Assembly: GCF_001642935.1 (NCBI RefSeq)
Contig: NZ_CP016761.1
Coordinates: 3,410,001 to 3,474,000 of the forward strand
Direction: 5' to 3'
Length of the DNA stretch: 64,000 nucleotides
DNA from: Fictibacillus arsenicus
GTDB taxonomy: Bacteria; Bacillota; Bacilli; Bacillales; Fictibacillaceae
Shown here: piece by piece, positions 17,338 to 62,700 of the stretch
Numbering within the stretch: the stretch's first letter is position 1
Layout: each line of letters starts with the position of its first letter
The notes under the pieces: generated by a model
What the model was told of the DNA's origin: nothing
The model's database searches: none
Seen by the model: the letters and a program-made list of their open reading frames with translations, nothing else
Position numbers and translations under genes: made by a program

Positions 17338-17505
17338 TCTATGCACCGTAATGTGAGGTCTATGAACCAAAGTTCGTCTTCTATGCACCAAAGTGATTAG
17401 TCTATGCACTCAATCTACAGCTCTATGCGCTAAAAGCCGTTCTATGCACCTAAACTCGACTTCTATGCACCAAACGAGAGGTTCTATGCGCACATGCTGC
17501 CTCGC
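17338..17505 (+). repeat. Phased 8-unit array, core TCTATGCACC (array 1)
   Basis: Cores start at 17338, 17359, 17380, 17401, 17422, 17441, 17462 and 17483, so the intervals are 21,21,21,21,19,21,21. The 9-11 nt linkers differ in every unit. It lies between two genes of one transport operon. Confidence 0.85.
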
Positions 17506-27138: not shown

Positions 27139-27306
27139 TTTTACGTTTGGCGCATAGAGAAGTAGTTTTAGTGCATAGAAACTTGTTTTCGGTGCATAGA
27201 TTCTTAATTTTAGTTCTTAGAAGGCTGTTTGGTGCATAGCAATGCTGGTTTGACGCATAGGAAAGTAGTTTTAGTGCATAGAACGTCTATTTAGGTGTAT
27301 AGACAA
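27139..27306 (-). repeat. Phased 8-unit array, core TGCATAGA on plus strand (array 2)
   Basis: GCATAG or its variants start at 27152, 27173, 27194, 27215 (TCTTAG), 27234, 27255, 27276 and 27297 (GTATAG). Intervals are 21,21,21,19,21,21,21. It occupies most of the 361-bp gap between the secreted GHL10 gene and the MBL gene. Confidence 0.85.
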
Positions 27307-29334: not shown

Positions 29335-29495
29335 AGATTGGTTTATAGAATAGAATGTTTGGTGCATAGAGCATATCTGTTAGTGCATAGAAACGGCTAT
29401 TCGGTGTATAGAATTGTGATTCGTGCATAGGAGACTTTTTTGGTGCATAGGCAATCTTCTTTAGTGCATAGAGCTCAAGATTCTGTGCATAGACT
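29335..29495 (-). repeat. Phased 8-unit array, core TGCATAGA on plus strand (array 3)
   Basis: Units start at 29343 (TTATAG), 29364, 29385, 29406 (GTATAG), 29425, 29445, 29466 and 29487. Intervals are 21,21,21,19,20,21,21. A weaker ninth unit may lie near 29324. It fills the 432-bp divergent region between the secreted GHL10 and NERD genes, where no gene is seen. Confidence 0.85.
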
Positions 29496-29593: not shown

Positions 29594-30571
29594 ATGATTA
29601 TGAAAGAGCGTAAAACACCAGTTGTTATCTTGATATTAGAGAGGCTTCTAAATCGGCTTCACCCCTTAGACCCGAGAAGACCTGAGATAGAAGAAGAACT
29701 AGCAAAATTCTTATCGGGTCATAAAGGAGAACAAGCTCTGGATTTTTATTTAAATGATCTTCCTCAAAAAGAATTCTTCATTTTTCACAACCTTCGCCTC
29801 CTCCAGAACACTAGCTACTTTCAGCTCGACATACTTATTCTCACTCAGTATTACTTTTTGATAATCGAAGTGAAGAACTTTTCAGGTATCCTCTATTTTG
29901 ATCAAAACTTCTATCAACTAATTAGGACTATCAATGGTAAAGAAGAAACCTTTCCTGATCCCATTTCACAGGTAAAAAGGCAACAATTCTGCTTAAAAGA
30001 ATGGTTGAAAGATCATCATTTTACGAACATCCCCGTTGAATCCCTTGTTGTCGTCAGCAATTCTCAAACCCAAATTAGAGTTCCCACTGGCCGAACTGAT
30101 ATTTACAAGATGGTTACCCACAAAATTCATCTTACTGAAAGGATTCGTTTCTATGATCGTAAACATAAGGATGAGCAAATTCCGAAAAAAGACCTTCGAA
30201 AACTCTCCAAAATACTTTTAAAGAATCACACCACCCCAACTCCGAATGTGCTCCAAAAATATAACATTTCAAATGAAGATATTATTAAAGGAGTAGCTTG
30301 TCCCAGTTGTGGCGTTATCCCTATGATACGATGCCATAAAAAATGGGTGTGCACCACATGTAAATTTGATTCAAAAACAGCATATGTACAGGCTTTGCGA
30401 GATTACTTCCTTCTAATTAGTCCAACCATCACTAATAGTCAGTGTCGCGATTTTTTGAAATTAAAGTCTCGCAATACAGCTAGAAATCTCCTTATGGACC
30501 TGAACCTTTCTACTTCAGGACAACTAAGGCATACAAAATACCATTTGAAGTTTGATGATATCTTTGATTAA
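29594..30571 (+). CDS. NERD-domain protein with C-terminal zinc ribbon
   Basis: 325 residues. An N-terminal nuclease-related domain: HKGEQALDFYL, then FQLDILILT...FLIIEVKNFSG, which keeps the D...E-x-K nuclease-like core, and a later Q-x6-Q segment (QVKRQQFCLKEWL). A CPSCG...CTTC zinc ribbon lies at about 236-256, followed by a C-terminal helical part. NERD proteins are thought to act in DNA processing. The strongest ribosome site points to ATG 29589, which gives only Met-Lys-stop and overlaps this gene's start. Confidence 0.8.
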   Translation: MIMKERKTPVVILILERLLNRLHPLDPRRPEIEEELAKFLSGHKGEQALDFYLNDLPQKEFFIFHNLRLLQNTSYFQLDILILTQYYFLIIEVKNFSGILYFDQNFYQLIRTINGKEETFPDPISQVKRQQFCLKEWLKDHHFTNIPVESLVVVSNSQTQIRVPTGRTDIYKMVTHKIHLTERIRFYDRKHKDEQIPKKDLRKLSKILLKNHTTPTPNVLQKYNISNEDIIKGVACPSCGVIPMIRCHKKWVCTTCKFDSKTAYVQALRDYFLLISPTITNSQCRDFLKLKSRNTARNLLMDLNLSTSGQLRHTKYHLKFDDIFD

Positions 30572-30579
30572 TGAATGTA

Positions 30580-30745
30580 AGTTTCGGTGCATAGAACTGT
30601 TAGTTCTGCGCATAGAAAAGTGTTTTCAACGCATAGAATTTTGTTTGGTGCATTGACCTAGTTTTTCCGTGCATAAACTATCCACTTTGGTGCATAGAAC
30701 TAAAGTTTCTGTGCATAGAGACAGGATAAAAGTGCATAGACCAAA
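30580..30745 (-). repeat. Phased 8-unit array, core TGCATAGA on plus strand (array 4)
   Basis: Units start at 30589, 30610, 30631, 30650 (GCATTG), 30671 (GCATAA), 30692, 30713 and 30734. Intervals are 21,21,19,21,21,21,21. It lies between two converging genes. Confidence 0.85.
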
Positions 30746-34377: not shown

Positions 34378-34416
34378 GAGTGACTCCTCCCTTTTCGTTT
34401 AAACGTTTTCGGAACA

Positions 34417-35457
34417 TCATCCTGTTTCGTTTCGCTCAATAAGACGATCACTTTCTATACCAAATTCGATTACTTTTGTTAAAACGGAAGACTTCTTATC
34501 CTTTAGCTGAAGATAGGCAGAAGACACATCCTCCAAAGGAACAACATCGTTCAAGTAAGGTGCAACTTTAAGCCGATTTTCGCTAAGAAGACGAATATAT
34601 TCCTCGACGTTTCTCCCCTCTGTCCATCGAATAAAACCATAAGGATAATCGGTAGCACTTCTCTCATAAAGCGGATCGTATCTCCCGGGACCTCCAGCCC
34701 GTGCAATTAATATTTGCGCTTCTTTTCCAAACATCAAGTCACGTGGGAAATTCGGTTCAATATCCCCAACAATCACGGCTTTTCCTTTATCACGAATCCA
34801 ATTCAAACATTCCTTCGTTAGTGTAGATTCCTTGCCACCCGCGCATAAAAGAACGGCATCAGCCCCGAATCCTTTTGTTTTAGCTGAGATTGCGTTCTTT
34901 AAATCCTCAATCGTTGTATAGGATTCAACTCCTGTTATATCCTGAAATAGATTAGATCGTTCAGCAGAAATATCATAAGGCAACACTTGATATCCGGCAG
35001 CCAGCGCAATTTGACCGATCAACTGGCCTAAAATCCCCAAGCCAGCTACAACGACTGATTCCCCAAATTGCAGGTTACCCACTCGAAGTGAATGAATCGC
35101 GATTGCTCCTAATCCAGCGAGTGCTGCCTCTTTTGGATCAACGGATCGAGGAATGGAGCTGCAAAGCGTTTTAGGTACGAGCAAATATTCAGCGTGCTTC
35201 ACATAAGGGGCACCATAACAAGCAACCATCTCGTTTTCCAAAAAAGATTCAGTATGCTTGCCGCATTTCACAACTGTTCCTACCGCACTATATCCGAGCG
35301 ACCTTTTTGCATCCATACTCAGAGCTAGCAAGCCTAGTTCCGTTCCAGGACTGATTGCTGAATAAGAAGTCTTGATCAGCAGATAGCCATCTTTCATTTC
35401 CGGGATGGTTTCATCCATGATTTCTACTTTTCCATCAACAGCTACAACACTTTTCAT
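34417..35457 (-). CDS. MDR-family dehydrogenase without canonical zinc ligands
   Basis: 346 residues. GroES-like N-terminal half and Rossmann half (VVVAGLGILGQLIGQIAL). The usual catalytic-zinc Cys/His set is replaced: the position of C-G-T-D reads SPGTE and no four-cysteine lobe is seen. This is the pattern of the zinc-free or 'bi-domain' oxidoreductase-like branch. It lies between the hybrid regulator and the Gfo genes and probably takes part in sugar oxidation. Confidence 0.8.
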   Translation of the reverse strand: MKSVVAVDGKVEIMDETIPEMKDGYLLIKTSYSAISPGTELGLLALSMDAKRSLGYSAVGTVVKCGKHTESFLENEMVACYGAPYVKHAEYLLVPKTLCSSIPRSVDPKEAALAGLGAIAIHSLRVGNLQFGESVVVAGLGILGQLIGQIALAAGYQVLPYDISAERSNLFQDITGVESYTTIEDLKNAISAKTKGFGADAVLLCAGGKESTLTKECLNWIRDKGKAVIVGDIEPNFPRDLMFGKEAQILIARAGGPGRYDPLYERSATDYPYGFIRWTEGRNVEEYIRLLSENRLKVAPYLNDVVPLEDVSSAYLQLKDKKSSVLTKVIEFGIESDRLIERNETG

Positions 35458-35469
35458 ATAAACCCTCCC

Positions 35470-36879
35470 TTAACGAACATTCTGGATTTTATCTGAAGGT
35501 TGATTAAGCTTTGTTTCAACTCTTTTACATAACAGCTCGCCACTGATGAAACCAGACCAATAAAGGCGAAGTTCATTTGTAATCTCCAACAGTTCCTCAA
35601 AGTTCAGTCCAAGCTGATCATAAAGACGGAATGTAGGAATGGTCTCGCGGAAAAGCTTGAAACGAGGCGGCTGGTACACCTGTTCACCGCCTGTTTTTTC
35701 AGCCATATGCTTAACAGCTGGTATACTAAGCGTTTCCGTACGAATAATCTCCTGGCATTCATCAGAAGTCATGAACTTCACCCATGTTTTAGCGGCTTCA
35801 AGTCTTGTAGATTGCTTATTAATGGCCATTCCAATCATGAGCAGCAGTGTACGTGCATCCTCTAAGTATGGAAGAGGAGCAATATCATATCGAATCTCAT
35901 CTTCTTTCATTTGGTTCAAACTAAAGTATGAAGACATAATCATCGATACTTTCCCTTCTAGAAAAAGTTTTTCAGCATCTTTATCACTGTCAGATAGAAG
36001 GTTTTGAACCATTTCTTGCTTTCTAAACAGCTCTCGGCATAGATTTATGCAATTCATGAATTTTTCTTTATCAAAAATCACTGATCCATCTAAGTTCCTT
36101 GAAAAACTTACTCCATTCTGAAAAAGGAAGATCGGCCATCGGTTCACGGATAGTGAATGAAAATAAAACCCGCAATGTTTTTCAGCGTTTTTTGCCTCAG
36201 TAAGCTGGTTCGCAGCTTGTATGACATCATCCCATTGCCAGCCGCTATCTGGAACGGCTAGATTTGCCTCCTCAAAATGCTGTTGGTTATAGCAAAGAAC
36301 AATCGGTGAATAAATAAAAGGTTTAACATATTGCTCTTTTCGCTGGAACGGTTTTTCTAAAAAAGGATACACGGTCTTTTCCGCTGCAACCGGTTCAAAC
36401 AGCTCTTCGCTAACACTTCCAAACGCGCAAAAGTCATTATAGTTGATCGTAACGACGTCAATGATGTCATTAACAAAGAAATCGTATACCGTCTGCTGAT
36501 AGTGATCATAGGAAATAGCAATCGTTTGCACTTTTATTAACGGATACCTTTCCTCAAACGCCTGAATGACTTTCGAAAGTGCAGCTTCTTGTTTAATAGA
36601 TGGATAGTAACCTAAACGAAGAATGACTTGATCATAAGGCTTATTAGAAACAACAAGGTTTCCGATCCTGGATTTCTTAACAATCAAGCCTTGCTTCACT
36701 AATTCTTCTAATCCTTTGCGAACTGAGTTTTTACTTAAATCAAACCGTTCTGCTAATGCCAGTTCAGAAGGCAGAAAGTCCCCTACTTCGAACTCGCTAT
36801 TCATGATTTGTTCCTTCGTTGTTTCAATAAAAGTATCTAATTTTTGATTAAATTCTTCTCGGCTCTTTTTTTCACTCAT
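35470..36879 (-). CDS. GntR-type regulator fused to an ABC solute-binding domain
   Basis: About 469 residues. Residues about 8-75 form a GntR winged helix (FEVGDFLPSELALAERFDLSKNSVRKGLEELVKQGLI). About 85-440 read as a family-1 extracellular sugar-binding protein (VIQAFEERYPLIKVQTI, then YVKPFIYSPIVLCYNQQHFEEA), but with no signal peptide or lipobox. The binding fold is therefore used inside the cell as a ligand sensor. It is encoded directly after the importer, 27 bp from the permease gene, and likely controls this locus. The start follows GGAAGG. Confidence 0.85.
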   Translation of the reverse strand: MSEKKSREEFNQKLDTFIETTKEQIMNSEFEVGDFLPSELALAERFDLSKNSVRKGLEELVKQGLIVKKSRIGNLVVSNKPYDQVILRLGYYPSIKQEAALSKVIQAFEERYPLIKVQTIAISYDHYQQTVYDFFVNDIIDVVTINYNDFCAFGSVSEELFEPVAAEKTVYPFLEKPFQRKEQYVKPFIYSPIVLCYNQQHFEEANLAVPDSGWQWDDVIQAANQLTEAKNAEKHCGFYFHSLSVNRWPIFLFQNGVSFSRNLDGSVIFDKEKFMNCINLCRELFRKQEMVQNLLSDSDKDAEKLFLEGKVSMIMSSYFSLNQMKEDEIRYDIAPLPYLEDARTLLLMIGMAINKQSTRLEAAKTWVKFMTSDECQEIIRTETLSIPAVKHMAEKTGGEQVYQPPRFKLFRETIPTFRLYDQLGLNFEELLEITNELRLYWSGFISGELLCKRVETKLNQPSDKIQNVR

Positions 36880-36905
36880 GCTAAAACCTTCCTTATCATG
36901 CAAAT

Positions 36906-37715
36906 CTATTTCAGCCCGCTAAGAGCTATGCCTTTTACAAAATATCGTTGAAAAAACAAAAAGATTAAGAATGTCGGGATGAACGACAGAAGCGATCCAG
37001 CCATTTCCACTCCGAAGTTTCCTTCTTTCGTCAGCAAGGACGCTAACCCTACCGTAACAGGATACATATCTTGACTTGTCGTAAAAATCAGAGGTGTTAA
37101 GAGATCGTTCCAGTTGGAGATAAAAGCAAACGTACCGACTGTCGCAATAACAGGCTTCGAAAGCGGCAGCATGATCTTAAAAAAGATCGTAAAGTCCCCT
37201 GCTCCATCAATTCTAGCCGCTTCTTCCAAATCCTTTGGAAGAGTCTGCATATATTGCCTAACAAAAAACACACCGAGTATTCCCCATATTTCAGGAACGA
37301 TTAACGGTAAATATGTGTTGATCCAGCCGAATTCACTAAACATGATATAACGTGGAATGATCAACAGCTGACTCGGCAGCATAATAACAGCCATCATCGT
37401 CCAAAAGATTATATTTTTAAAAGGAAACTCTTTTTTAGCAAAGATATAGCCTAATACAGCAGCAAAAAACATCTGGGCAAATACCGGAATAACTGTAATT
37501 ATCGTTGAATTAATGATCCATCTAATAAACTCCGCATTTTTCAAAATATAAGTGAAGTTTTCTATCGTAATTTCTTCAGAAAACCACAAGAACGGATTGC
37601 TGGTTGGTATCCTCATTTTTAAGATTGAACCAAATGCCATGATGAGGAACGGAATGACAAAGCATAGCGCAATTCCTACTAAGGGAACATATGTCCAACG
37701 AGCACTTTTTTGCAT
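36906..37715 (-). CDS. Carbohydrate ABC transporter permease (MalG type)
   Basis: 269 residues with six membrane segments and the EAA loop DLEEAARIDGAGDFTIFFKIMLP. Partner of the MalF-type permease immediately upstream (12 bp). Confidence 0.92.
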   Translation of the reverse strand: MQKSARWTYVPLVGIALCFVIPFLIMAFGSILKMRIPTSNPFLWFSEEITIENFTYILKNAEFIRWIINSTIITVIPVFAQMFFAAVLGYIFAKKEFPFKNIIFWTMMAVIMLPSQLLIIPRYIMFSEFGWINTYLPLIVPEIWGILGVFFVRQYMQTLPKDLEEAARIDGAGDFTIFFKIMLPLSKPVIATVGTFAFISNWNDLLTPLIFTTSQDMYPVTVGLASLLTKEGNFGVEMAGSLLSFIPTFLIFLFFQRYFVKGIALSGLK

Positions 37716-37727
37716 ACTCTCCCTCCT

Positions 37728-38687
37728 TTACTTGTAATCTACTTCTTTTCCAAAATAGCGTTTTTGAATTAACGAAAGACCAAAGATAATGAAGAACAGT
37801 ACATACGCCAGCACACTCGCATAACCAAGACGAAGCGAGGTGAAGCCTTGATGGTACAAATAATAAACGATCGTAGTCGTTGAATAATTCGGTCCACCGC
37901 TCGTTAGCAAAAATGCTGAATCAAAGATCTGAAACGAACCGATCGATGTGATGATCGCGACATAAAAATGAATAGGAAGAAGCAGCGGAAACGTAATCTT
38001 CCAAAATAGTTTCCAGCGATTTGCCCCATCAATCCTGGCAGCTTCATAGTATTCTTCGGGTATTGACTGCAACCCCGCATAATAATAGATCATTGTACTC
38101 CCGCAAACTTTGAAAATACTAAGTCCCGCTAAAACGATTAGAGCCTGCGCTGAACTCGATAAAAATAGCTGAGTATCGATTCCGAAGTTATGCAAAAGTA
38201 CGTTTACGAGACCGGATTCAGTTCCTTTAAACAGCCATGACCAAATTCCTGAAATCACTACAAATGACGTTACAACTGGTAAAAAGAAGATCCCTTTAAA
38301 GATGGCACTCCCTTTTTTCCCTTGATTGATGAGTAGTGCCAGCCCCAGGCCAAGCGCCATGGTAGGAACAATATAATAGAGAGAAAATAAAATCGTATTC
38401 CATATCGCTTTCCACGCAAGTTCATCCGATAAAAAAGCAATCCAGTTATCAAGACCTATGAACTCGGCCTCCCCAATAATCGGCCACTTCATAAAGGTGA
38501 TATATAGACTGAAAAGAATCGGATACAAATGAAAAATAGCAAAGTGGATAAGGATCGGTACCAAAAAGATATAAACGATGGCATGTTTTTTGAAATTCAG
38601 AATCACTTTTTTAGAAAAACTAGTTTTTGAGTGATTCTGAAGAGGCATTCCGACATCTGTATCGTAGGCTAACTTTGACTCCTTCAC
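37728..38687 (-). CDS. Carbohydrate ABC transporter permease (MalF type)
   Basis: 319 residues, GTG start. Cytosolic N-terminus of about 30 residues, six membrane segments and the EAA loop EYYEAARIDGANRWKLFWKITFP. Follows the binding-protein gene after an intergenic hairpin. Confidence 0.92.
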   Translation of the reverse strand: MKESKLAYDTDVGMPLQNHSKTSFSKKVILNFKKHAIVYIFLVPILIHFAIFHLYPILFSLYITFMKWPIIGEAEFIGLDNWIAFLSDELAWKAIWNTILFSLYYIVPTMALGLGLALLINQGKKGSAIFKGIFFLPVVTSFVVISGIWSWLFKGTESGLVNVLLHNFGIDTQLFLSSSAQALIVLAGLSIFKVCGSTMIYYYAGLQSIPEEYYEAARIDGANRWKLFWKITFPLLLPIHFYVAIITSIGSFQIFDSAFLLTSGGPNYSTTTIVYYLYHQGFTSLRLGYASVLAYVLFFIIFGLSLIQKRYFGKEVDYK

Positions 38688-38721
38688 TCAAACAACTCCT
38701 TGCTTCAGATTTACCTGAATA

Positions 38722-38752
38722 AAAGAAAAGGAGGATTGACTCCTCCCCTCAC
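38722..38752 (-). terminator. Hairpin after the binding-protein gene
   Basis: On the minus strand GGAGGAGTC-AATCCTCC followed by TTTTCTTTT. It is an intra-operon attenuator-like stem that would favour binding protein over permease expression. Confidence 0.6.
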
Positions 38753-38753
38753 T

Positions 38754-40025
38754 TTATTTTCCCATTTCTTCTTCTATCGCTTTAGCGACAGCATCAGCAG
38801 CTTCTTTAGGGCTCTTTGTCCCTTCCATCATTGCTTGAAGTTCAGCTTGAATCTTTGGCATGACGACACGGGCTACCGGATGAATAACGCCAGGGTTGGC
38901 GTATTGAACATACTCCGTCATCTTCGCCATATCTTTATCACCGTCATAGATAGAAGTAGCTGATTTTCTAGCAGGGATAAATTTAGCCAATTCGTTAAAC
39001 GCTTCAGAACTTTCTTTATTTGTCATCTCTTTAACAAGCTGTGCCGCAAGTTCTTTGTTTTTAGAAGTTGTTGGAACAACAAACATTCCCGTTGTACCGA
39101 AAGTTGCCATCTTTTCTTGTTTTAAAGGAGGTCCAATCACATAATCGTTAAATCCTTTTTCTCTTAAAGCTGCAATCGTTCCGCCAGAACCCCAAACCGC
39201 TAAAATTTTCCCTTCAACAAAAGGAGTGAAGTGTTCTAGTGTATTGATCGAATCCTTTGGAATGAAGCCCTCTTTATACCACTTGTTAATTCTCTCAAAT
39301 GCCTCAACACCGTCTTTGTTGTTAATTTTTACTTTTCCGTCCTTCGAGATCACTTCTCCGCCGGATTGCCACACTAACGGATATAACGTAGCGTTCGCTG
39401 TATTTGCACCTTCAAATGAGCGGGCAAAGTATCCTTTATCTTTTGCTTTTTGAGCTAATTGATCAAATTCTTCCCACGTTTCAGGAAGGTCGTTCGGATC
39501 CGCACCGATCTCTTCAAGAATTTTGGTGTTATACATATAGGTTTGCACTTCACGTAAGAGTGGCAATCCATATATTTCGTCCTTGTATGTTACTGCATCG
39601 ATTGAACTCTGTTCAAAATCTTCTTTATCCCAGTCATCACCTAAAAGATCCGTGATTGGCGTTAGTACTCCTTGATCGGCAAACTGTGCCATAATATCTG
39701 GAATTAGATAGAAAACATCAGGACCTTGATTAGCCGCTAAAGCTGTAAGTATTTTTTGTTCACGGTTTGCCCATGGAATCTCTTCAAATTTTACTTTTAC
39801 ATTCGGGTATTTTTTTTTGAATGATGCCGCCATGTTGTCAAAAACCTCATTTTGTTTATCCTTCAGTTCTTGATTCACATAAGGATGAATCCATACCGTT
39901 AAGGTCGCGGAAGTGTTTTTATCCACCTTCTTTCCGCTCGCCGACTCGCTTTCATCCGAACAAGCAGCCATCGTGAAAATCAGGATCAGCGCCAAAAACA
40001 TCATCCCAAACTTCTTCCATCCCAT
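38754..40025 (-). CDS. Extracellular sugar-binding lipoprotein of ABC importer
   Basis: About 423 residues. Lipoprotein signal MGWKKFGMMFLALILIF ending at the MAAC lipobox, then a family-1 binding domain (TLTVWIHPYVNQELKDKQNEVFDNMAASF, FEEIPWANREQKILTALAANQGPDVFYL). The start at 40025, after AAGGGGG, excludes a spurious 27-residue upstream extension. Two palindromic operator candidates lie upstream. Confidence 0.92.
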   Translation of the reverse strand: MGWKKFGMMFLALILIFTMAACSDESESASGKKVDKNTSATLTVWIHPYVNQELKDKQNEVFDNMAASFKKKYPNVKVKFEEIPWANREQKILTALAANQGPDVFYLIPDIMAQFADQGVLTPITDLLGDDWDKEDFEQSSIDAVTYKDEIYGLPLLREVQTYMYNTKILEEIGADPNDLPETWEEFDQLAQKAKDKGYFARSFEGANTANATLYPLVWQSGGEVISKDGKVKINNKDGVEAFERINKWYKEGFIPKDSINTLEHFTPFVEGKILAVWGSGGTIAALREKGFNDYVIGPPLKQEKMATFGTTGMFVVPTTSKNKELAAQLVKEMTNKESSEAFNELAKFIPARKSATSIYDGDKDMAKMTEYVQYANPGVIHPVARVVMPKIQAELQAMMEGTKSPKEAADAVAKAIEEEMGK

Positions 40026-40075
40026 TTGCCAATTCCCCCTTTTAGGTTGTTTGACTTCTCTATCCACTCCTGGTT

Positions 40076-40090
40076 CATATCTGGTATATG
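40076..40090 (-). promoter_or_regulatory. Operator candidate CATAT-N5-ATATG, site 1
   Basis: A perfect 5-bp inverted repeat with CTGGT centre, about 50 bp before the binding-protein start. The ACCAGATAT core recurs at 40197 and 45251. Confidence 0.5.
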
Positions 40091-40196
40091 AGTTAATCAT
40101 AATCAAACATGCTAATAATTGTCAATATTATTTTTATTTTCTGAAAACTTTATTTAGTCTTCTTTATTTCAGCAGTTTGCTAGCATCTTTAATGGT

Positions 40197-40211
40197 CATA
40201 TACCAGATATA
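40197..40211 (-). promoter_or_regulatory. Operator candidate CATAT-N5-ATATA, site 2
   Basis: CATAT-ACCAG-ATATA, in inverted orientation to site 1 and about 120 bp away, allowing looping by a dimeric GntR regulator. Confidence 0.45.
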
Positions 40212-40224
40212 ATCTAATTCAAAA

Positions 40225-43197
40225 CTACTCTTCTATAAGTTTAGAAAGATCAGTAAGCAGCGTTTCTTTCACCGTGGTTTGATCGGTTTCCCACTTATCA
40301 ACATGTTGCTTCATTACTTCAAGATGATGAAAATACTCCTCAAGGTTTCCATTCTCTTGAGGATGCTTTACTTGTCGAATATGGTTCGTTAATTTTTTAT
40401 AAAGATTGTGCGGGATGATTTGTTCTGTATGCAACTGAGTAATATAACCTTCTAGTGAGTCCGTGGTTACAGCAACATGAATTTCAACTTCATTAGAGGT
40501 AAAGGTTTTTCCATTCCATGACACTTGGGCAGTAATTGTTGCAGTCCCAGGATTTTGAGCAACCAGCTTTCCGTCTTCAGCCTTTACAACCTCTTTATTA
40601 GAAGATGTAATTACCGCATCTTCAAACTGAATCTTATCTTCATTGCCAAGTGTTCCAGAAACATGGTAGGAAGTGGTATCTCCTCTTGTTAATGTGTTGG
40701 TATCAACTGTTAAATTAATTTCCCTTAGAATTTCTGATGTCTTTACTCTTTCATAAAAACCAAAATCATCAAAGTAAGCATCTGTTAAGGCATATGAAGT
40801 GCTTAACGCAAACACTCTTGCAAAAACCACGCCTTCTGGAGCTGTAATCCGTTGTTCAACTTTTTGCCAGCTTCCAAAACCGCTTTTAACTTGAATTGCT
40901 TCTTCTTTTACTTGTTTTCCACTAGAATCATACATGCGAACGAGTAAACTTGGCGTTCCGCTTTCTATGAACATCATCACTTCACCTTTATATTCCTTTC
41001 CGGGCTGAACCGGGATCGGATCACTATATACAGCAACAGATTGGTTACGGAGCTGATCCATTATTTTTAAACTCTTGCTGCCAGAAAAAGCTTTTTCAGA
41101 TGAAATCTCGTATTTATAAGCGTCACCTGTTCCAAACATGTTCGTCCAGCCGGACAGGTCTTCTTCAAAACTGCTGTTTTCTACCGGAATTTCTTCCCAA
41201 TCGTACTCTCCCGGATCAACGACTTCTATTTTGGATAAAATCGTCCGGTTATCCAATCTGGAGTAATAAATATCTCCATCTTCACCAATTGCAAAAGATA
41301 CCGTATTCACGACAAACTTAGATGCTAACGTCTCAGGATCAATAACAAACAATTTGCCTGCAATATTAGCATAAAGCAATCCATTCTCAGACCATTGAAG
41401 ATGCGATGCTGACCAGCCTTCTTGGGATGGTATGATATTTCTGCTTTTAACCACATCTAACGTTTCAGGATCGAGTGCAAAGATATACCCTTGTGACGTT
41501 CCCCAGATGTAGCCGTCATTTTTCCCTTCGATCAATTCACCGATAAGCTCCGGTTTTTCAAGACCGGCAATCACCAAATTAGATTCTTTAATTTTTTGTT
41601 TCGTTTCAGGATCCCAAATAAACAGCTTGCCTTGTTCTTCGGTAGGTGAGCTTCCTAGACCGCCGCGAATGGTCGTCGAACCAAACACTTTGCCGTCTTT
41701 ATAGACAAGACCACTTATGCTTTGATTTTGAACAACATTACGAAACACTTCGTAATGCCTGCCATCAGAAACCGTTAAGGCTCCGCCAAGTTTTCCATAA
41801 GTCGCCATACTGCCGGTGTATAATTTTCCATCACCGCTATCCATAACATGAAGTCTGTCTTGTTCATTTTCGATAACAAACAGTTTTTCAGGTTTTCCAT
41901 AAGGGTCTGTTTCAGGAGCAATCATCTGAACACTGCCTTCGGGATACACACCAAAATACACTTTGTTGTTCAGTGAATGAATGACATCTGCTTGTCCTAA
42001 ACTGATGATTTTGTTCTCACCCGTTTTTGGATTAAAAACTGCTCCTGTAGCCCCAGTCATTCCGCTAATATACATCTTATCTTCTGAGTAGCTGAAAATC
42101 TTATTAATAACATTCGCAGTTGCCGGTACAACGTCTTTGTATTGAACAACTTTTTGAGTTTCAATATTAAAAAACGTCACAGTACCATTAAAAGTTATCG
42201 TTGCAAGACTCTTCCCTGGAAGCTGACTGTCTCCTTCTATCTCAACCCAATCTGCTCCTCGAAGGCCGCTAGAGTATGCCATTGGAGTCGTTCCTATTTC
42301 TTTTGTTGATAGGTCTATATATTTTAAGGTTCCATCCGCAACAAAATAGACTTTATGATCAAGTGAATCTGTGACATGGAGACCTGACACATTCGACATC
42401 ACAACGTCCAGCCATCGCTGTTCGGCAATGTCGTAAACATACATATTTTTAGTCTCTGAATACCTTGCAAAAATATAACGATCATCCACCACATTTATAT
42501 CGTAAACAAATCCTGATTCAGTTTCAGGAATACCCGCTGAGATATCTTCCTTTTCACCAGTCTCAACATTTAGCTTCATGATTTTTCTATGCGCTGTACC
42601 GGCATAAACGAAGCCGTTGTGATAGTCCATCGATCTTACATACTCTTGGCTGATCTCGCCTATCATTTTTCCGTAATCTCTTAATTCCTGCGTTTCATAG
42701 TTGTATTGAAAAACCTTTCCGCCAGGGAATGTTCCAACGTAAGCATTGCTATCTTCATCTACAGCTAATGCCCATTGAGAAGATTCAGGAATTCTGACAA
42801 GAGGCGTTACGGCTTTTGTTTCGGGTGAATACCCCCACAGATGAGAGCCTGCTGCAATATAAACCGTTCCATTTGGAGCAACTTCATGATGCCAAGAATC
42901 AGCAGCTCCTTCTAACGGCAGGCTTCGTACCAACTTATTTTCATCGAGGTCGATGACATTAAACATGGCAGGTACGCTTTTTGAAGTTGTATACAAAACA
43001 TCATGTCCATCTTCTTTCCCTGCAGCACCGTCATAGATTGTAGGTTGGCCGCTCAATGGTGCAGTCAGATCTTTTGAAGGTGAAAACTCTGGAAGTACGG
43101 TTTCTTCTGCATCAACCGGAGAGTTGTAGTTGAATGAAAAAGCAGAAATGAAAAGAAAGAGACACATTAGCAAACTAGCAATTTTAGTTATTTTCAT
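40225..43197 (-). CDS. Secreted multidomain beta-propeller protein with FIMAH-like C-terminus
   Basis: 990 residues. Signal peptide ending near VDA|EE; beta-propeller region of about 650 residues with repeated units such as AYVGTFPGGKVFQYNYET and FVYAGTAHRKIMKLNVETG; a carbohydrate-binding-like jelly roll (about 690-840, NSSFEEDLSGWTNMFG); a bacterial Ig-like segment (about 850-910); and a C-terminal helical domain (about 915-990) resembling the FIMAH domain of Bacillus exoenzymes. Probably recognises or degrades the locus polysaccharide outside the cell. Tandem paralogue upstream. Confidence 0.75.
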   Translation of the reverse strand: MKITKIASLLMCLFLFISAFSFNYNSPVDAEETVLPEFSPSKDLTAPLSGQPTIYDGAAGKEDGHDVLYTTSKSVPAMFNVIDLDENKLVRSLPLEGAADSWHHEVAPNGTVYIAAGSHLWGYSPETKAVTPLVRIPESSQWALAVDEDSNAYVGTFPGGKVFQYNYETQELRDYGKMIGEISQEYVRSMDYHNGFVYAGTAHRKIMKLNVETGEKEDISAGIPETESGFVYDINVVDDRYIFARYSETKNMYVYDIAEQRWLDVVMSNVSGLHVTDSLDHKVYFVADGTLKYIDLSTKEIGTTPMAYSSGLRGADWVEIEGDSQLPGKSLATITFNGTVTFFNIETQKVVQYKDVVPATANVINKIFSYSEDKMYISGMTGATGAVFNPKTGENKIISLGQADVIHSLNNKVYFGVYPEGSVQMIAPETDPYGKPEKLFVIENEQDRLHVMDSGDGKLYTGSMATYGKLGGALTVSDGRHYEVFRNVVQNQSISGLVYKDGKVFGSTTIRGGLGSSPTEEQGKLFIWDPETKQKIKESNLVIAGLEKPELIGELIEGKNDGYIWGTSQGYIFALDPETLDVVKSRNIIPSQEGWSASHLQWSENGLLYANIAGKLFVIDPETLASKFVVNTVSFAIGEDGDIYYSRLDNRTILSKIEVVDPGEYDWEEIPVENSSFEEDLSGWTNMFGTGDAYKYEISSEKAFSGSKSLKIMDQLRNQSVAVYSDPIPVQPGKEYKGEVMMFIESGTPSLLVRMYDSSGKQVKEEAIQVKSGFGSWQKVEQRITAPEGVVFARVFALSTSYALTDAYFDDFGFYERVKTSEILREINLTVDTNTLTRGDTTSYHVSGTLGNEDKIQFEDAVITSSNKEVVKAEDGKLVAQNPGTATITAQVSWNGKTFTSNEVEIHVAVTTDSLEGYITQLHTEQIIPHNLYKKLTNHIRQVKHPQENGNLEEYFHHLEVMKQHVDKWETDQTTVKETLLTDLSKLIEE

Positions 43198-43220
43198 TTT
43201 TTCCTCCCATGTTTTTAGTT

Positions 43221-45191
43221 TTAACGCACATACCGATACAAATCTGTGCCGCGGCTAAAATAGAGATTGCCATTTCTGTCTTTTGCAAACAAGGCAGCAT
43301 CGTTGTTAAGAATCTCAACTTCCCAGGTTGTCGGGTTGAATTTAAACAGTTTTCCAAGTGTACTTCCGTAAAAATTCCCATCTGTATCTAATTGAAGAAA
43401 AGCACCTCTCCAGTAATGGCCTACACCGCTCCAGCTGAACGGGAACAGCTCTTTTGTCTGGACAACTTCTCTTGTTAGTGGATCAAACTTAAAGATCTTA
43501 CCCGGACTCATTCCCCACAGGTTTCCTGCATCATCAAACGCAAGTGCTCCTATTCCTTTTTCGCCTGGCAACGGAATCGTTTCATAGATTTTTTCTTTTT
43601 TGGCAGGATCAAAGATAAATAATTTCGCTTCTGTTTCTGTCGGTGTGATGCCCAAGCCTCCTGATACACTTGTACCGCCATACACCAATCCATTTTTATA
43701 ATGCAACGAGATCACACTTTGGTTTTCCACGACATTTCGGTAGACTTCATATGAACTTGTTGCTTCATCCATAACAGTTAGTGCACCACCTAGTTTTCCA
43801 TAGGTAGGGACTGTTCCAAAAAACACCTTCCCATCACCTTCTGCCATACCAAACGGACGATCTTGATCATATTCTTTCAATGAGAATAACTTTTTAGGAT
43901 TCGTGGCTTCATCCACTTTTGAAGCGTCATGATCATAGGGCAAGTCAGGATCATAGCGATATATTACGCCGCCAGTATAAACACCAAGGTAAAGGTATTT
44001 ATCCGTAGATATCATATTTTCTGCTTGTCCAAAACCTGAAAAACTCGTGATCTTATTATCGGTAACTGAATATTTCGCAAATCCTCCTGAAAGATATCCG
44101 CTTGTATAGATATTTCCGTCAGGACCAGCACCGATGGATTGAATGCTGATCGGCTGACCTTCCATTTGGGCTTGCATCATTTTTGACTGACCGGATTTAG
44201 GGTTGTAGACCCAATACGTCCCGTTAAAAAGCATGCTTGTCAGGCTGGGCCCCCGGAACCCAGGTTCATCTAGGTGAATCCACCCAAAACCTTTATTGGA
44301 CCAAGTATCCTTAAAACCAGTTGGGGTCAATTCTTGAGTCTTCAAATCATAGGAATACACTTCGTTCTGTTTGTTAAAGTAAACAAGGTTTTTCGGACCC
44401 GCTGGAGATACTTTTACTCCTTTAACGCCAGGGATTTCATCAATCCATTCTTTCTTTCTCAAGTCATAAACAAGGAGAGTGCTAGAATCGGTTAGCCTGG
44501 CAAACATGTAATGTTTTATAATGTCTAAATCGTATACGAACTTTTCATTTTGGTAAGATTCTGGGAGTGGAATTTCTTCTTTTTCATTCGTGGCAGGATC
44601 GAATTTAATGAGATGGGCATGTGCACCCATACCGACATACACTTTTCCTTTATAAAGATCTAGACTTCTGGAATACTGCTCACCTTCTACCATTGGTCCA
44701 TAATCAGTAAATTCTTTTGTTGCGGGGTCATACATAAAAATTTTACCGTTCGGGAAAGTCCCACCGTATATTCGGCCTTCTTCATCAGATTTGATGTGCC
44801 ATAACGTGGATTCAGTCGAGAGTGCTTTCCCTAAGTTTTCAACTTGGTCTACATCTGGGTGATATAGATATAGATTTGCTCCTCCTGCAATGTAAACGCT
44901 ACCAAAAGGGTCCGTAACTGCCCCCCAAGCTTGAGAAGCTCCTTCTAGCGGGTGAACAGAAATCTTTGTCCCCGTTTTTGCATCAATAACGTTCAGCATC
45001 GCAGGGTTTCCGTTAGAAACTGCAAAAATAGCTTCCTCACCATTTGGTCCTGTTCCATATGTAGTGCTTAAAATTCCTATTGAGTAATGGGGTGTCCCAA
45101 GCTTTTCAACTACCCCAGCTGCATGAGTTGTGATCGGACTTATTAATGGAACAAGCATGGTAAGGACGAGCAAAAAAACAAAACGCTTCAT
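43221..45191 (-). CDS. Secreted beta-propeller protein
   Basis: 656 residues. Signal peptide MKRFVFLLVLTMLVPLISP ending near THA|AG, then only the propeller region. Units such as IYGGTFPNGKIFMYDPATKEFTDYGPM and the KLGGALTVMDEATSSYEVYRN block align with the downstream 990-residue protein, so the two arose by duplication. First gene of the second sugar locus; an ACCAGATAT operator candidate lies 60 bp upstream. Confidence 0.75.
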   Translation of the reverse strand: MKRFVFLLVLTMLVPLISPITTHAAGVVEKLGTPHYSIGILSTTYGTGPNGEEAIFAVSNGNPAMLNVIDAKTGTKISVHPLEGASQAWGAVTDPFGSVYIAGGANLYLYHPDVDQVENLGKALSTESTLWHIKSDEEGRIYGGTFPNGKIFMYDPATKEFTDYGPMVEGEQYSRSLDLYKGKVYVGMGAHAHLIKFDPATNEKEEIPLPESYQNEKFVYDLDIIKHYMFARLTDSSTLLVYDLRKKEWIDEIPGVKGVKVSPAGPKNLVYFNKQNEVYSYDLKTQELTPTGFKDTWSNKGFGWIHLDEPGFRGPSLTSMLFNGTYWVYNPKSGQSKMMQAQMEGQPISIQSIGAGPDGNIYTSGYLSGGFAKYSVTDNKITSFSGFGQAENMISTDKYLYLGVYTGGVIYRYDPDLPYDHDASKVDEATNPKKLFSLKEYDQDRPFGMAEGDGKVFFGTVPTYGKLGGALTVMDEATSSYEVYRNVVENQSVISLHYKNGLVYGGTSVSGGLGITPTETEAKLFIFDPAKKEKIYETIPLPGEKGIGALAFDDAGNLWGMSPGKIFKFDPLTREVVQTKELFPFSWSGVGHYWRGAFLQLDTDGNFYGSTLGKLFKFNPTTWEVEILNNDAALFAKDRNGNLYFSRGTDLYRYVR

Positions 45192-45250
45192 TTTTCAAAC
45201 CTCCTAAAATGGAATATTTGAACACGGAAGCAGGTTTAATTCACTCTGGG

Positions 45251-45267
45251 TTATATCTGGTTCACAA
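45251..45267 (-). promoter_or_regulatory. Operator candidate with ACCAGATAT core, site 3
   Basis: Minus strand reads TTGTGAACCAGATATAA, about 60 bp before the first propeller gene. It shares the centre of sites 1 and 2 but has only half of the palindrome. Confidence 0.4.
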
Positions 45268-45479
45268 CAATCATACAAGAGGATTTGACACCTATCAACA
45301 TACTTTTCTGAAAATTTAGAAATATGGTAATAAAGAATGGTAATCGTGATTAACTGTAGGTATAAAGATGGGGTGATGTGATCATTTAGGTGGAGAGAGG
45401 TTGTTTTAGGTGCCTCGATTGCCGTTTAGTTCGTCGCCAAATGTTTGGTTCTTATGGAACTGTCCGATAATATGTGAAT

Positions 45480-45640
45480 GGTGCATAGACTAGCTATTTT
45501 GGTGCATAGAGCGTCACTATCAGCGCATAGAAATTGGAAATACGCATAGCAGCTTTTTTATGGAGCATAGAAAGGCAAATCCAGTGCTTAGACCCCTTTT
45601 TTCAGTGCATAGGATGATAGATTTGATGCATAGACTTCCA
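45480..45640 (-). repeat. Phased 8-unit array, core TGCATAGA on plus strand (array 5)
   Basis: Units start at 45483, 45504, 45525, 45544, 45565, 45586 (GCTTAG), 45607 and 45628. Intervals are 21,21,19,21,21,21,21, identical to array 4. It lies in the 513-bp gap between pbpC-like and the first propeller gene; the rest of that gap holds site 3, a terminator and no gene. Confidence 0.85.
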
Positions 45641-45648
45641 TAAAATAA

Positions 45649-45708
45649 AAAAAGGCTGACACCAAAAGGTCACATTACACTCCCTTTTAGGTCAGCCCCT
45701 TTTTTTAT
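45649..45708 (-). terminator. Terminator of the PBP gene
   Basis: On the minus strand GGGGCTGACC and GGTGTCAGCC flank an A/T-rich loop and are followed by TTTTTTT. The stem is GGCTGAC with GTCAGCC. Confidence 0.65.
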
Positions 45709-51054: not shown

Positions 51055-51080
51055 GAGAGTAAAAGCAGGTATACGCCAGC

Positions 51081-51243
51081 TCTATGCACCAAAATGAAAA
51101 CTCTATGTACCGATTTTACAGATCTATGCGCGGAACGAATTAGTCTATGCACCGAAGTAATCTCTCTATGCACCAAACTGCTTTCTATGCGCTGAACTAG
51201 ATGTTCTATGCACTAAAAATGCCTATCTATGCACCAGTGTCAC
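51081..51243 (+). repeat. Phased 8-unit array, core TCTATGCACC (array 6)
   Basis: Units start at 51081, 51102, 51123, 51144, 51165, 51184, 51205 and 51226. Intervals are 21,21,21,21,19,21,21, identical to array 1. It lies between two converging genes. Confidence 0.85.
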
Positions 51244-51276
51244 ACCAAGCCTCCTGCATAACTACCCTAAACGTAA

Positions 51277-62441: not shown

Positions 62442-62580
62442 GTTTTCACTCCTTATAAAAAGGAATATTTATTGTAATTAGTGTATGGATTGGGTGAATG
62501 ATTGGGAACTCGTATAACTTGGAATCGAAAGGTGCTGTGTTAAGGGATTTACGGTACGTGTTCTTGTATTTATTACACGT

Positions 62581-62700
62581 TCGCTCAAAATAGTTGACCT
62601 ACGCTCAAACACTCTGACTTTCGCTCAAAAATCTTGAGTACCGCTCAAAATACCTTACTACCGCTCAAAAACTCATTTTTACGCTCAAAATATAGTTTAG
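62581..62700 (+). repeat. Phased 6-unit array, core CGCTCAAA, exact 20-bp period (array 7)
   Basis: CGCTCAAA starts at 62582, 62602, 62622, 62642, 62662 and 62682, with unrelated 12-nt linkers. It lies in the 345-bp gap upstream of the lyase gene; the rest of that gap shows only a terminator. Confidence 0.85.

Follow-up and report, generated by a model that had tools for sequence, protein, structure and literature searches.

Chromosomal genes for nuclease-type proteins with a NERD domain and phased arrays of short motifs, each gene with motifs of its own type, apparently form a widespread partnership that has gone undescribed. An array of its own motif with 20/21-bp phasing was found beside 85 of 103 NERD loci (69 of 85 in one set and 16 of 18 in another); two genes are counted twice in this total (L440 and L443 repeat L301 and L302), so that the figure for different genes is 83 of 101. 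The other 18 of the 103 loci showed no array at the threshold used. A literature search, with coverage short of bioRxiv and most subscription journals, found no paper on NERD proteins with phased arrays.

Arrays with a TCTATG core are described here from a window of 64,000 nucleotides, bases 3410001-3474000 of the 4,055,461-base chromosome of Fictibacillus arsenicus (genome G000). We consider it rather likely that these arrays supply the DNA side of a nuclease-array partnership, in which the NERD protein binds them and their dispersal resembles that of RAYT/REP systems.

Architecture of the arrays in the window

Six intergenic arrays of eight TCTATG-cored units each, reported in a first-pass annotation made from the letters alone, were all found again in the window: A1 (17338..17495, plus strand), A2 (27146..27303, minus), A3 (29337..29493, minus), A4 (30583..30740, minus), A5 (45477..45634, minus) and A6 (51081..51238, plus), the last being the array of the original observation. 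As had been described, the cores of A1-A6 are set 21 bp apart with one 19-bp step per array. A1, A4, A5 and A6 have in common the interval series 21,21,21,21,19,21,21 (5+3 units). In A2 (4+4 units) and A3 the short step stands one place along, with series of 21,21,21,19,21,21,21 and 21,21,20,19,21,21,21, respectively, and A3 is the one array for which an extra 20-bp step had been noted. The core 13-mer with up to three mismatches occurs 61 times in the window, compared with a mean of 23.4 (sd 5.0, largest value 36) in 100 dinucleotide shuffles.

The spacing had been equated with two helical turns, which suits the TCTATG family but not its sister families, where steps are 20 or mixed 20/21 bp. 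The linkers had been called unrelated. Between units of one array this holds, mean identity being 0.23-0.32 in A1-A6, but A1 aligns end to end (by eye) with several F. phosphorivorans arrays, which indicates that the arrays are diverged copies of one element. At these within-array identities, none of the six arrays repeats the whole unit, linker included, as a simple tandem repeat does. Ordinary, functionless tandem repeats grown by slippage would look like several sister arrays that are near-perfect 20-bp tandems (L309, L325, L331 and L333); in the TCTATG arrays, however, only the linkers have drifted apart, and cores and spacing are preserved. We give this explanation next to no chance. The near-perfect 20-bp tandems beside NERD genes, at these four loci and at L296, are possibly newborn arrays that have yet to undergo linker divergence.

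The 21-bp period hints at heptapeptide coding, a reading that was rejected by eye: some arrays (A6 and those of G006) contain in-frame stops, and the 19-bp step shifts the frame. A known RNA was also discarded as a candidate, the window giving no Rfam match at gathering scores. A 21-bp tandem repeat (CGATGTTTGTTACTCTTTCTT) at window 63711 to about 63807 (plus strand) was caught by the chain finder and is apparently unrelated to the arrays.

A NERD gene between two arrays

The gene at 29594..30571 (plus strand) lies between A3, on its 5' side, and A4, which starts 11 bp past its 3' end; with an array on each side, it ties the array family together. Its 325-aa nuclease-type product has a NERD domain (PF08378) as its sole Pfam match (E 2e-23, 83.5 bits against a gathering cut-off of 22.1), a CxxC/CxxC zinc-finger pattern whose four cysteines are invariant or nearly so, and a helical C-terminal part. 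Residues E46, D79, E92 and K94 are invariant in 50 aligned relatives, and we take them to be the E / D / ExK nuclease residues of the NERD family motif. A structure model of the protein (mean pLDDT 60.9) is too weak for firm matches; many of its top matches in the PDB are PD-(D/E)XK-type nucleases (Bax1, Can2, Hjc, McrBC), with a best E-value of only 0.024. The NERD profile, searched against the PDB, gave no good relative; its best match was a ribosomal zinc protein (E 0.18).

With a cut-off of E 1e-20, relatives of the protein were found in 218 of the 299 genomes sampled from the order and in 82 of 116 genera. If the partnership is real, this chromosomal nuclease family acquires a testable role, and the NERD domain a candidate sequence-specific DNA partner. 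Within Fictibacillus, paralogues were matched in 18 of 18 genomes, with 4 to 10 matches each, some of them fragments.

NERD domains are also present in defence proteins and are listed in PMC10952713 for Mokosh type I and Nhi-like defence. An anti-phage or anti-plasmid function would have the nuclease wait on the chromosomal arrays until foreign DNA sets it free or activates it. The NERD protein (P0001) does match MkoA (2e-8; the match spans 28-199 of 1607), PglW (7e-5; 14.9 bits, cut-off 990) and MAD6 (1e-11; 43.9 bits, cut-off 460), in each case with the NERD part only, and membership in Mokosh, BREX or MAD was rejected because none of the matches is full-length. The presence of several chromosomal paralogues per genome argues against a defence function, and so do the searches of mobile DNA: 72,556 plasmid and 50,697 phage records, screened for a plasmid or phage origin, yielded no relative with 80% coverage of the protein, and viral contigs gave no match with the NERD protein as query. 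We regard defence as an improbable explanation. The viral contigs likewise contained no match to the TCTATG array pattern or to the palindromic tail pattern described below.

Phased arrays adjoin NERD genes in many genera

The set of 85 loci draws 36 from the genus, namely 6 on the window's chromosome and the top 30 of a longer paralogue list; a further 46 come from other genera (20 of which were hand-picked for diversity from the listing of relatives) and 3 from Bhargavaea. Only the three in Bhargavaea were located by way of their arrays, all others by protein similarity. The 18 further loci are all from the genus and have 420-bp flanks, against 450-bp flanks for the 85. Flank motifs vary among NERD paralogues, examples being ATTGGACAGATTA, AAGTGGACAGTA, TTTATAAGTC, TTATGCTCG and TTTGAGCGAA.

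In the other genera, where loci were chosen by protein similarity, 29 of 46 reach four units. By windows, the count at these same 46 loci is 31 of 92 beside NERD and 2 of 91 at a distance of 950-1400 bp (Fisher 9e-9; the far windows are shorter, with a mean of 348 bp against up to 450 bp near the gene). This near/far comparison replaced an earlier control with 300 G000 genes, 45 of which reach four units, because that region contains real arrays. At 20 of 26 other-genera loci the flank score was unmatched by any of 100 shuffles, and in Bhargavaea the arrays adjoin NERD genes that are about 29-30% identical.

Iteron and parC-type arrays of plasmids are direct repeats about two helical turns apart, and the arrays described here have an iteron-like look. 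They might therefore bind an unrelated protein, such as a partition or iteron-type factor, with NERD genes as passengers that landed beside them, as the NERD genes without an array might also suggest. Yet the association recurs in many genera with different motifs and fades within about 1 kb of NERD. The arrays differ from those of plasmids in being chromosomal, in having many dispersed copies and in their association with a NERD nuclease gene, and no partition or replication protein (Rep, ParR-type) was found among ten Pfam-scanned genes adjoining the window arrays. The passenger explanation appears highly improbable.

The distribution of TCTATG arrays over the genomes also bears on the proposed partnership. 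Arrays number 5 or more in six genomes that have a NERD gene of at least 64% identity (or, in G006, a more distant but array-flanked one) and 2 in each of four genomes without such a gene; in eight genomes none was found. A matching gene is thus present in 6 of 10 array-bearing and 0 of 8 array-less genomes (Fisher 0.013, although the species are not independent).

It is only in NERD pairs sharing more than about 50% identity that similar proteins go with similar motifs. When all 2346 pairs are taken together, there is no significant correlation (Spearman 0.05, a value reached by 104 of 500 permutations), and co-evolution of motif and protein across all pairs was accordingly rejected. NERD genes and arrays do not pair strictly one with one: TGAGCG copies are numerous in G014, yet this motif flanks none of its seven NERD genes examined, and G000 has A-class TCTATG arrays (see below), with A-class flanks at none of its NERD loci examined.

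TCTATG arrays across the chromosome and the genus

A genome-wide search with a four-unit pattern (up to three mismatches) yielded 36 matches in the chromosome and none with a reversed control; two of the 36 represent the unrelated tandem repeat near window 63712. Ten arrays were identified in the whole G000 chromosome, seven of C class, with cores TCTATGCACC, and three of A class, with cores TCTATGAGTC/AACC. One A-class array has just 4 units found. With a four-unit pattern and up to one mismatch, arrays were detected in 10 of 18 Fictibacillus genomes and were not found in the remaining 8.

An exact step series is present in 56 eight-unit stretches, 49 with 21,21,21,21,19,21,21 and 7 with 21,21,21,19,21,21,21; these stretches were drawn from 83 chains in the fetched DNA, a few of which are spurious, split or joined. 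The five arrays of G006 have five or six units each and lack the 19-bp step. In the 56 stretches, each of core bases 1-6 has an information content of 1.0-2.0 bits, whichever of the three classes is considered. The class is set by core positions 7-9, which are C, A or G, then mostly a purine, then mostly a pyrimidine. An A-rich tail follows the core, and linker positions carry less than 0.5 bit. Between species, corresponding arrays have an identity of 0.83-1.00 in TCTATG and of 0.29-0.96 in the linkers.

Unit number and spacing thus proved non-random genome-wide, as the first-pass annotation had predicted. It had also held that the linkers are no part of a longer ordinary repeat; this was not contradicted outright, yet linker homology in some arrays identifies them as copies of one longer element. 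Its suggestion of selection for protein binding is supported by the retention of cores while linkers change, by the preserved spacing and by the location of the arrays beside one DNA-acting protein family.

Comparison of individual sites

At the A1 site an array is present at the corresponding position in G007, G013 and G014. At the A2 site an A-class array occurs in G013 and G014, and about 3 units can be seen by eye in G007. A5 is missing in G007, as is the adjoining stretch of about 11 kb, which in G000 occupies window 34378-45705.

A6 lies within 219 bp (51055-51273) that are absent from G007, where the flanking DNA is about 96% identical; the G007 gap spans from a stop codon to the next terminator-like hairpin. 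No array was found at the A6 site in G016, and the other 15 genomes had no neighbouring gene at the threshold used. No near-identical copy that could have been a donor was found in the 18 Fictibacillus genomes. A recent gain of A6, to which its absence from G007 and G016 pointed, is not supported, no close donor having been found among them, and a loss in G007 is a possible explanation for its absence there.

Core class differs between species at five corresponding sites that have flanking DNA in common, the sites having been both chosen and read by eye. Linker identity averages 0.41 in ten orthologous pairs of different class and 0.32 (sd 0.077) in 149 non-orthologous pairs. When linkers were ranked at one site, the true partners (0.56 and 0.52) were not singled out from the others (0.54 and 0.52). 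In view of this result, whole-array replacement is a possible alternative to in-place switching of core class.

The arrays occupy 30 convergent and 8 divergent intergenic regions, compared with 26 and 38 among G000 gaps of at least 150 bp (Fisher 2e-4; the count includes arrays that occupy one site in several species and so lack independence). The placement listing runs to 80 rows, of which one is a spurious low-scoring chain (L226 +); one array (L249) is split in two, and in 77 rows genes were found on both sides. TCTATG arrays also lie near their NERD gene: 6 of 10 in G000 and 6 of 11 in G014 are within 50 kb of it, where random expectation is 0.25 and 0.33. Such clustering round the gene may also reflect a local function.

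A structural or insulating role of the arrays is the main rival to the partnership with a nuclease. The arrays would then be cis-regulatory or chromosome-organising sites on which NERD or a partner polymerises, insulating gene ends, blocking read-through or shaping the nucleoid, and their spread would be incidental. The retention of cores and spacing at the same intergenic sites across species, the avoidance of divergent regions and the clustering near the NERD gene all agree with such a role. It accounts less well for the 8 of 18 species in which TCTATG arrays were not found, for the absence of A6 from a close relative and for the intact nuclease site, judged by its residues, which would be superfluous in a purely structural protein. 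On balance we consider this role unlikely.

Dispersal of the sister TGAGCG family

The window contains one TGAGCG array (62551..62687, minus strand) of 6 units with 20-bp steps and a palindromic tail (62551-62579). A second G000 NERD gene, located outside the window at chromosome positions 3516100-3517056, has TGAGCG arrays on both sides and is proposed to be the partner of the window TGAGCG array. The palindromic tail has 44 exact copies across the G000 chromosome and none with the reversed control. Of 29 tails whose surroundings were read, 22 stand behind a TGAGCG array and the other 7 behind arrays of the TGCGTG or GGGCG/GGGTG types. Since the palindrome is common to several core classes, another factor may be involved. 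Tails on other core classes were seen at L392, L393, L401, L403, L405, L408 and L318; the G000 positions of other-class tails are 245897, 388053, 867662, 984090, 1028105, 1305073 and 3480304.

Pairwise identity is 82-93% among five TGAGCG copies (at 619, 757, 820, 3484 and 3504 kb) and 78-81% between these five and another with five units (753 kb); with two other tailed arrays it is 52-64%. When 500-bp flanks of the tails were compared by blastn (406 pairs), 6 pairs had a common upstream stretch (43-93 bp) and 3 a common downstream stretch (35-69 bp); apart from one further pair, the copies concerned are those at 72, 619, 820 and 3484 kb. Of the six near-identical copies, three (619, 820 and 3484 kb) have flank stretches of 52-93 bp in common, so that a second repeat adjoins them and may have carried them. 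The copies at 753, 757 and 3504 kb have no common flank. In three relatives, a first look gave 121-129 TGAGCG candidates each, of which 40 per relative were scored. The first-pass annotation had offered copying by a dedicated mechanism as an alternative to protein binding. The near-identical copies at separate sites support this for the TGAGCG family; the TCTATG arrays, with no near-identical donor for A6 found in 18 genomes, do not.

Directly upstream of some TGAGCG arrays, in the flanks of the copies at 72, 619, 820 and 3484 kb (L391, L395, L400 and L318), there is another dispersed repeat that includes a stretch resembling GCTCGCTTTCCGCGGGGCG.

The strand of the tail varies with the replichore, at 17 plus and 4 minus before 2.03 Mb and 5 plus and 18 minus after it (Fisher 2e-4), on the assumption of an origin at 0, which was suggested by the GC skew of the fetched stretches. 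The upstream gene points towards the array in 25 of 29 tails (null 0.454), and the strand bias may therefore be secondary to gene direction. That the upstream gene reads towards the array is a further point in favour of the regulatory or structural role. As for distance from the TGAGCG NERD gene, 9 of 44 tails are within 50 kb of it and the others are found chromosome-wide. Gene-centred clustering was consequently set aside for this family as partial only, the median distance not being unusual (1171 of 20000 random sets).

Proposed mechanism and relation to known systems

In the mechanism that we propose, a chromosomal NERD protein with a PD-(D/E)XK-type nuclease core, a zinc finger and a helical C-terminal region would read a core of about 10-13 bp and assemble on 4-18 cores set 20-21 bp apart; in TCTATG arrays, the 19-bp step would split the assembly site into two blocks (5+3 or 4+4). 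Arrays adjoining the NERD gene would be home sites, and the other intergenic arrays, mostly just past gene ends, would be copies of the home array spread with the help of the nuclease. Such copies may last while the nuclease still recognises them. A change in NERD specificity would give rise to new core classes, with old classes persisting as relics. From comparison of sequences we infer binding by NERD, assembly on the array, cutting, nuclease-dependent copying or mobilisation, and a benefit to the host.

RAYT/REP (REPIN) systems offer the closest parallels to this mechanism in the following respects. They are known in pseudomonads and stenotrophomonads, and PMC3686654 describes orthologous genes flanked by different repeat classes, relics that remain after gene change or loss, and high repeat copy numbers that accompany a matching gene. 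REP sequences are palindromes of 20-40 bp that bear a GTAG-type tag (PMC3733652). At the NERD loci, too, short repeats of a matching type lie on the flanks of a nuclease-type gene in the chromosome, with intergenic copies dispersed, and there are likewise different repeat classes beside orthologous genes as well as putative relic repeats. The differences lie in the protein, a putative PD-(D/E)XK-type nuclease and not a Y1 HUH tyrosine transposase, in the repeats, which are phased direct-repeat arrays of 4-18 cores and not single palindromes or inverted doublets, and in the presence of several families per genome. In contrast to the palindromic repeats of REP, the one palindrome observed here is the tail that TGAGCG-type families carry. 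As both nuclease type and repeat form differ, the NERD-array system is not a member of RAYT/REP. We tentatively entertain, as a real possibility, the broader view that NERD genes and phased arrays constitute an unrecognised genome-resident element found throughout the Bacillales, a non-HUH counterpart of RAYT/REP, with break-and-repair copying to gene ends, fast switching of specificity and relics. An independent counterpart of this kind would make it possible to ask in Gram-positives why bacteria keep a nuclease together with dispersed repeats.

CRISPR arrays also consist of repeats with unrelated sequence between them. The present arrays differ in having 10-13 bp cores, linkers of about 8 bp, dispersed copies and, in the TCTATG family, a fixed unit number; CRISPR-Cas was rejected, with no cas gene among ten flanking genes and no Rfam match at gathering scores in the window. 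The FLSHclust paper (PMC10910872) reports six non-CRISPR interspaced repeat systems, of which those with an AddB-like nuclease/helicase and with GGDEF have transcribed arrays; the sole mention of NERD in its main text is in the legend of a figure, which groups it with putative CRISPR auxiliary genes. As described there, the non-CRISPR systems resemble ours in having regular repeats, variable spacers and a nucleic-acid-acting protein beside them, and the AddB-like and GGDEF systems differ from ours, in which the proposed protein partner is the NERD nuclease.

NERD paralogues, each beside its own candidate binding sites, would provide a natural series for learning how these proteins read DNA. 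In other NERD families, several 5' arrays (L428, L429, L435, L437 and L442) are followed by a TTCGACA or CGACA-like stretch, which is perhaps the end signal of their arrays.
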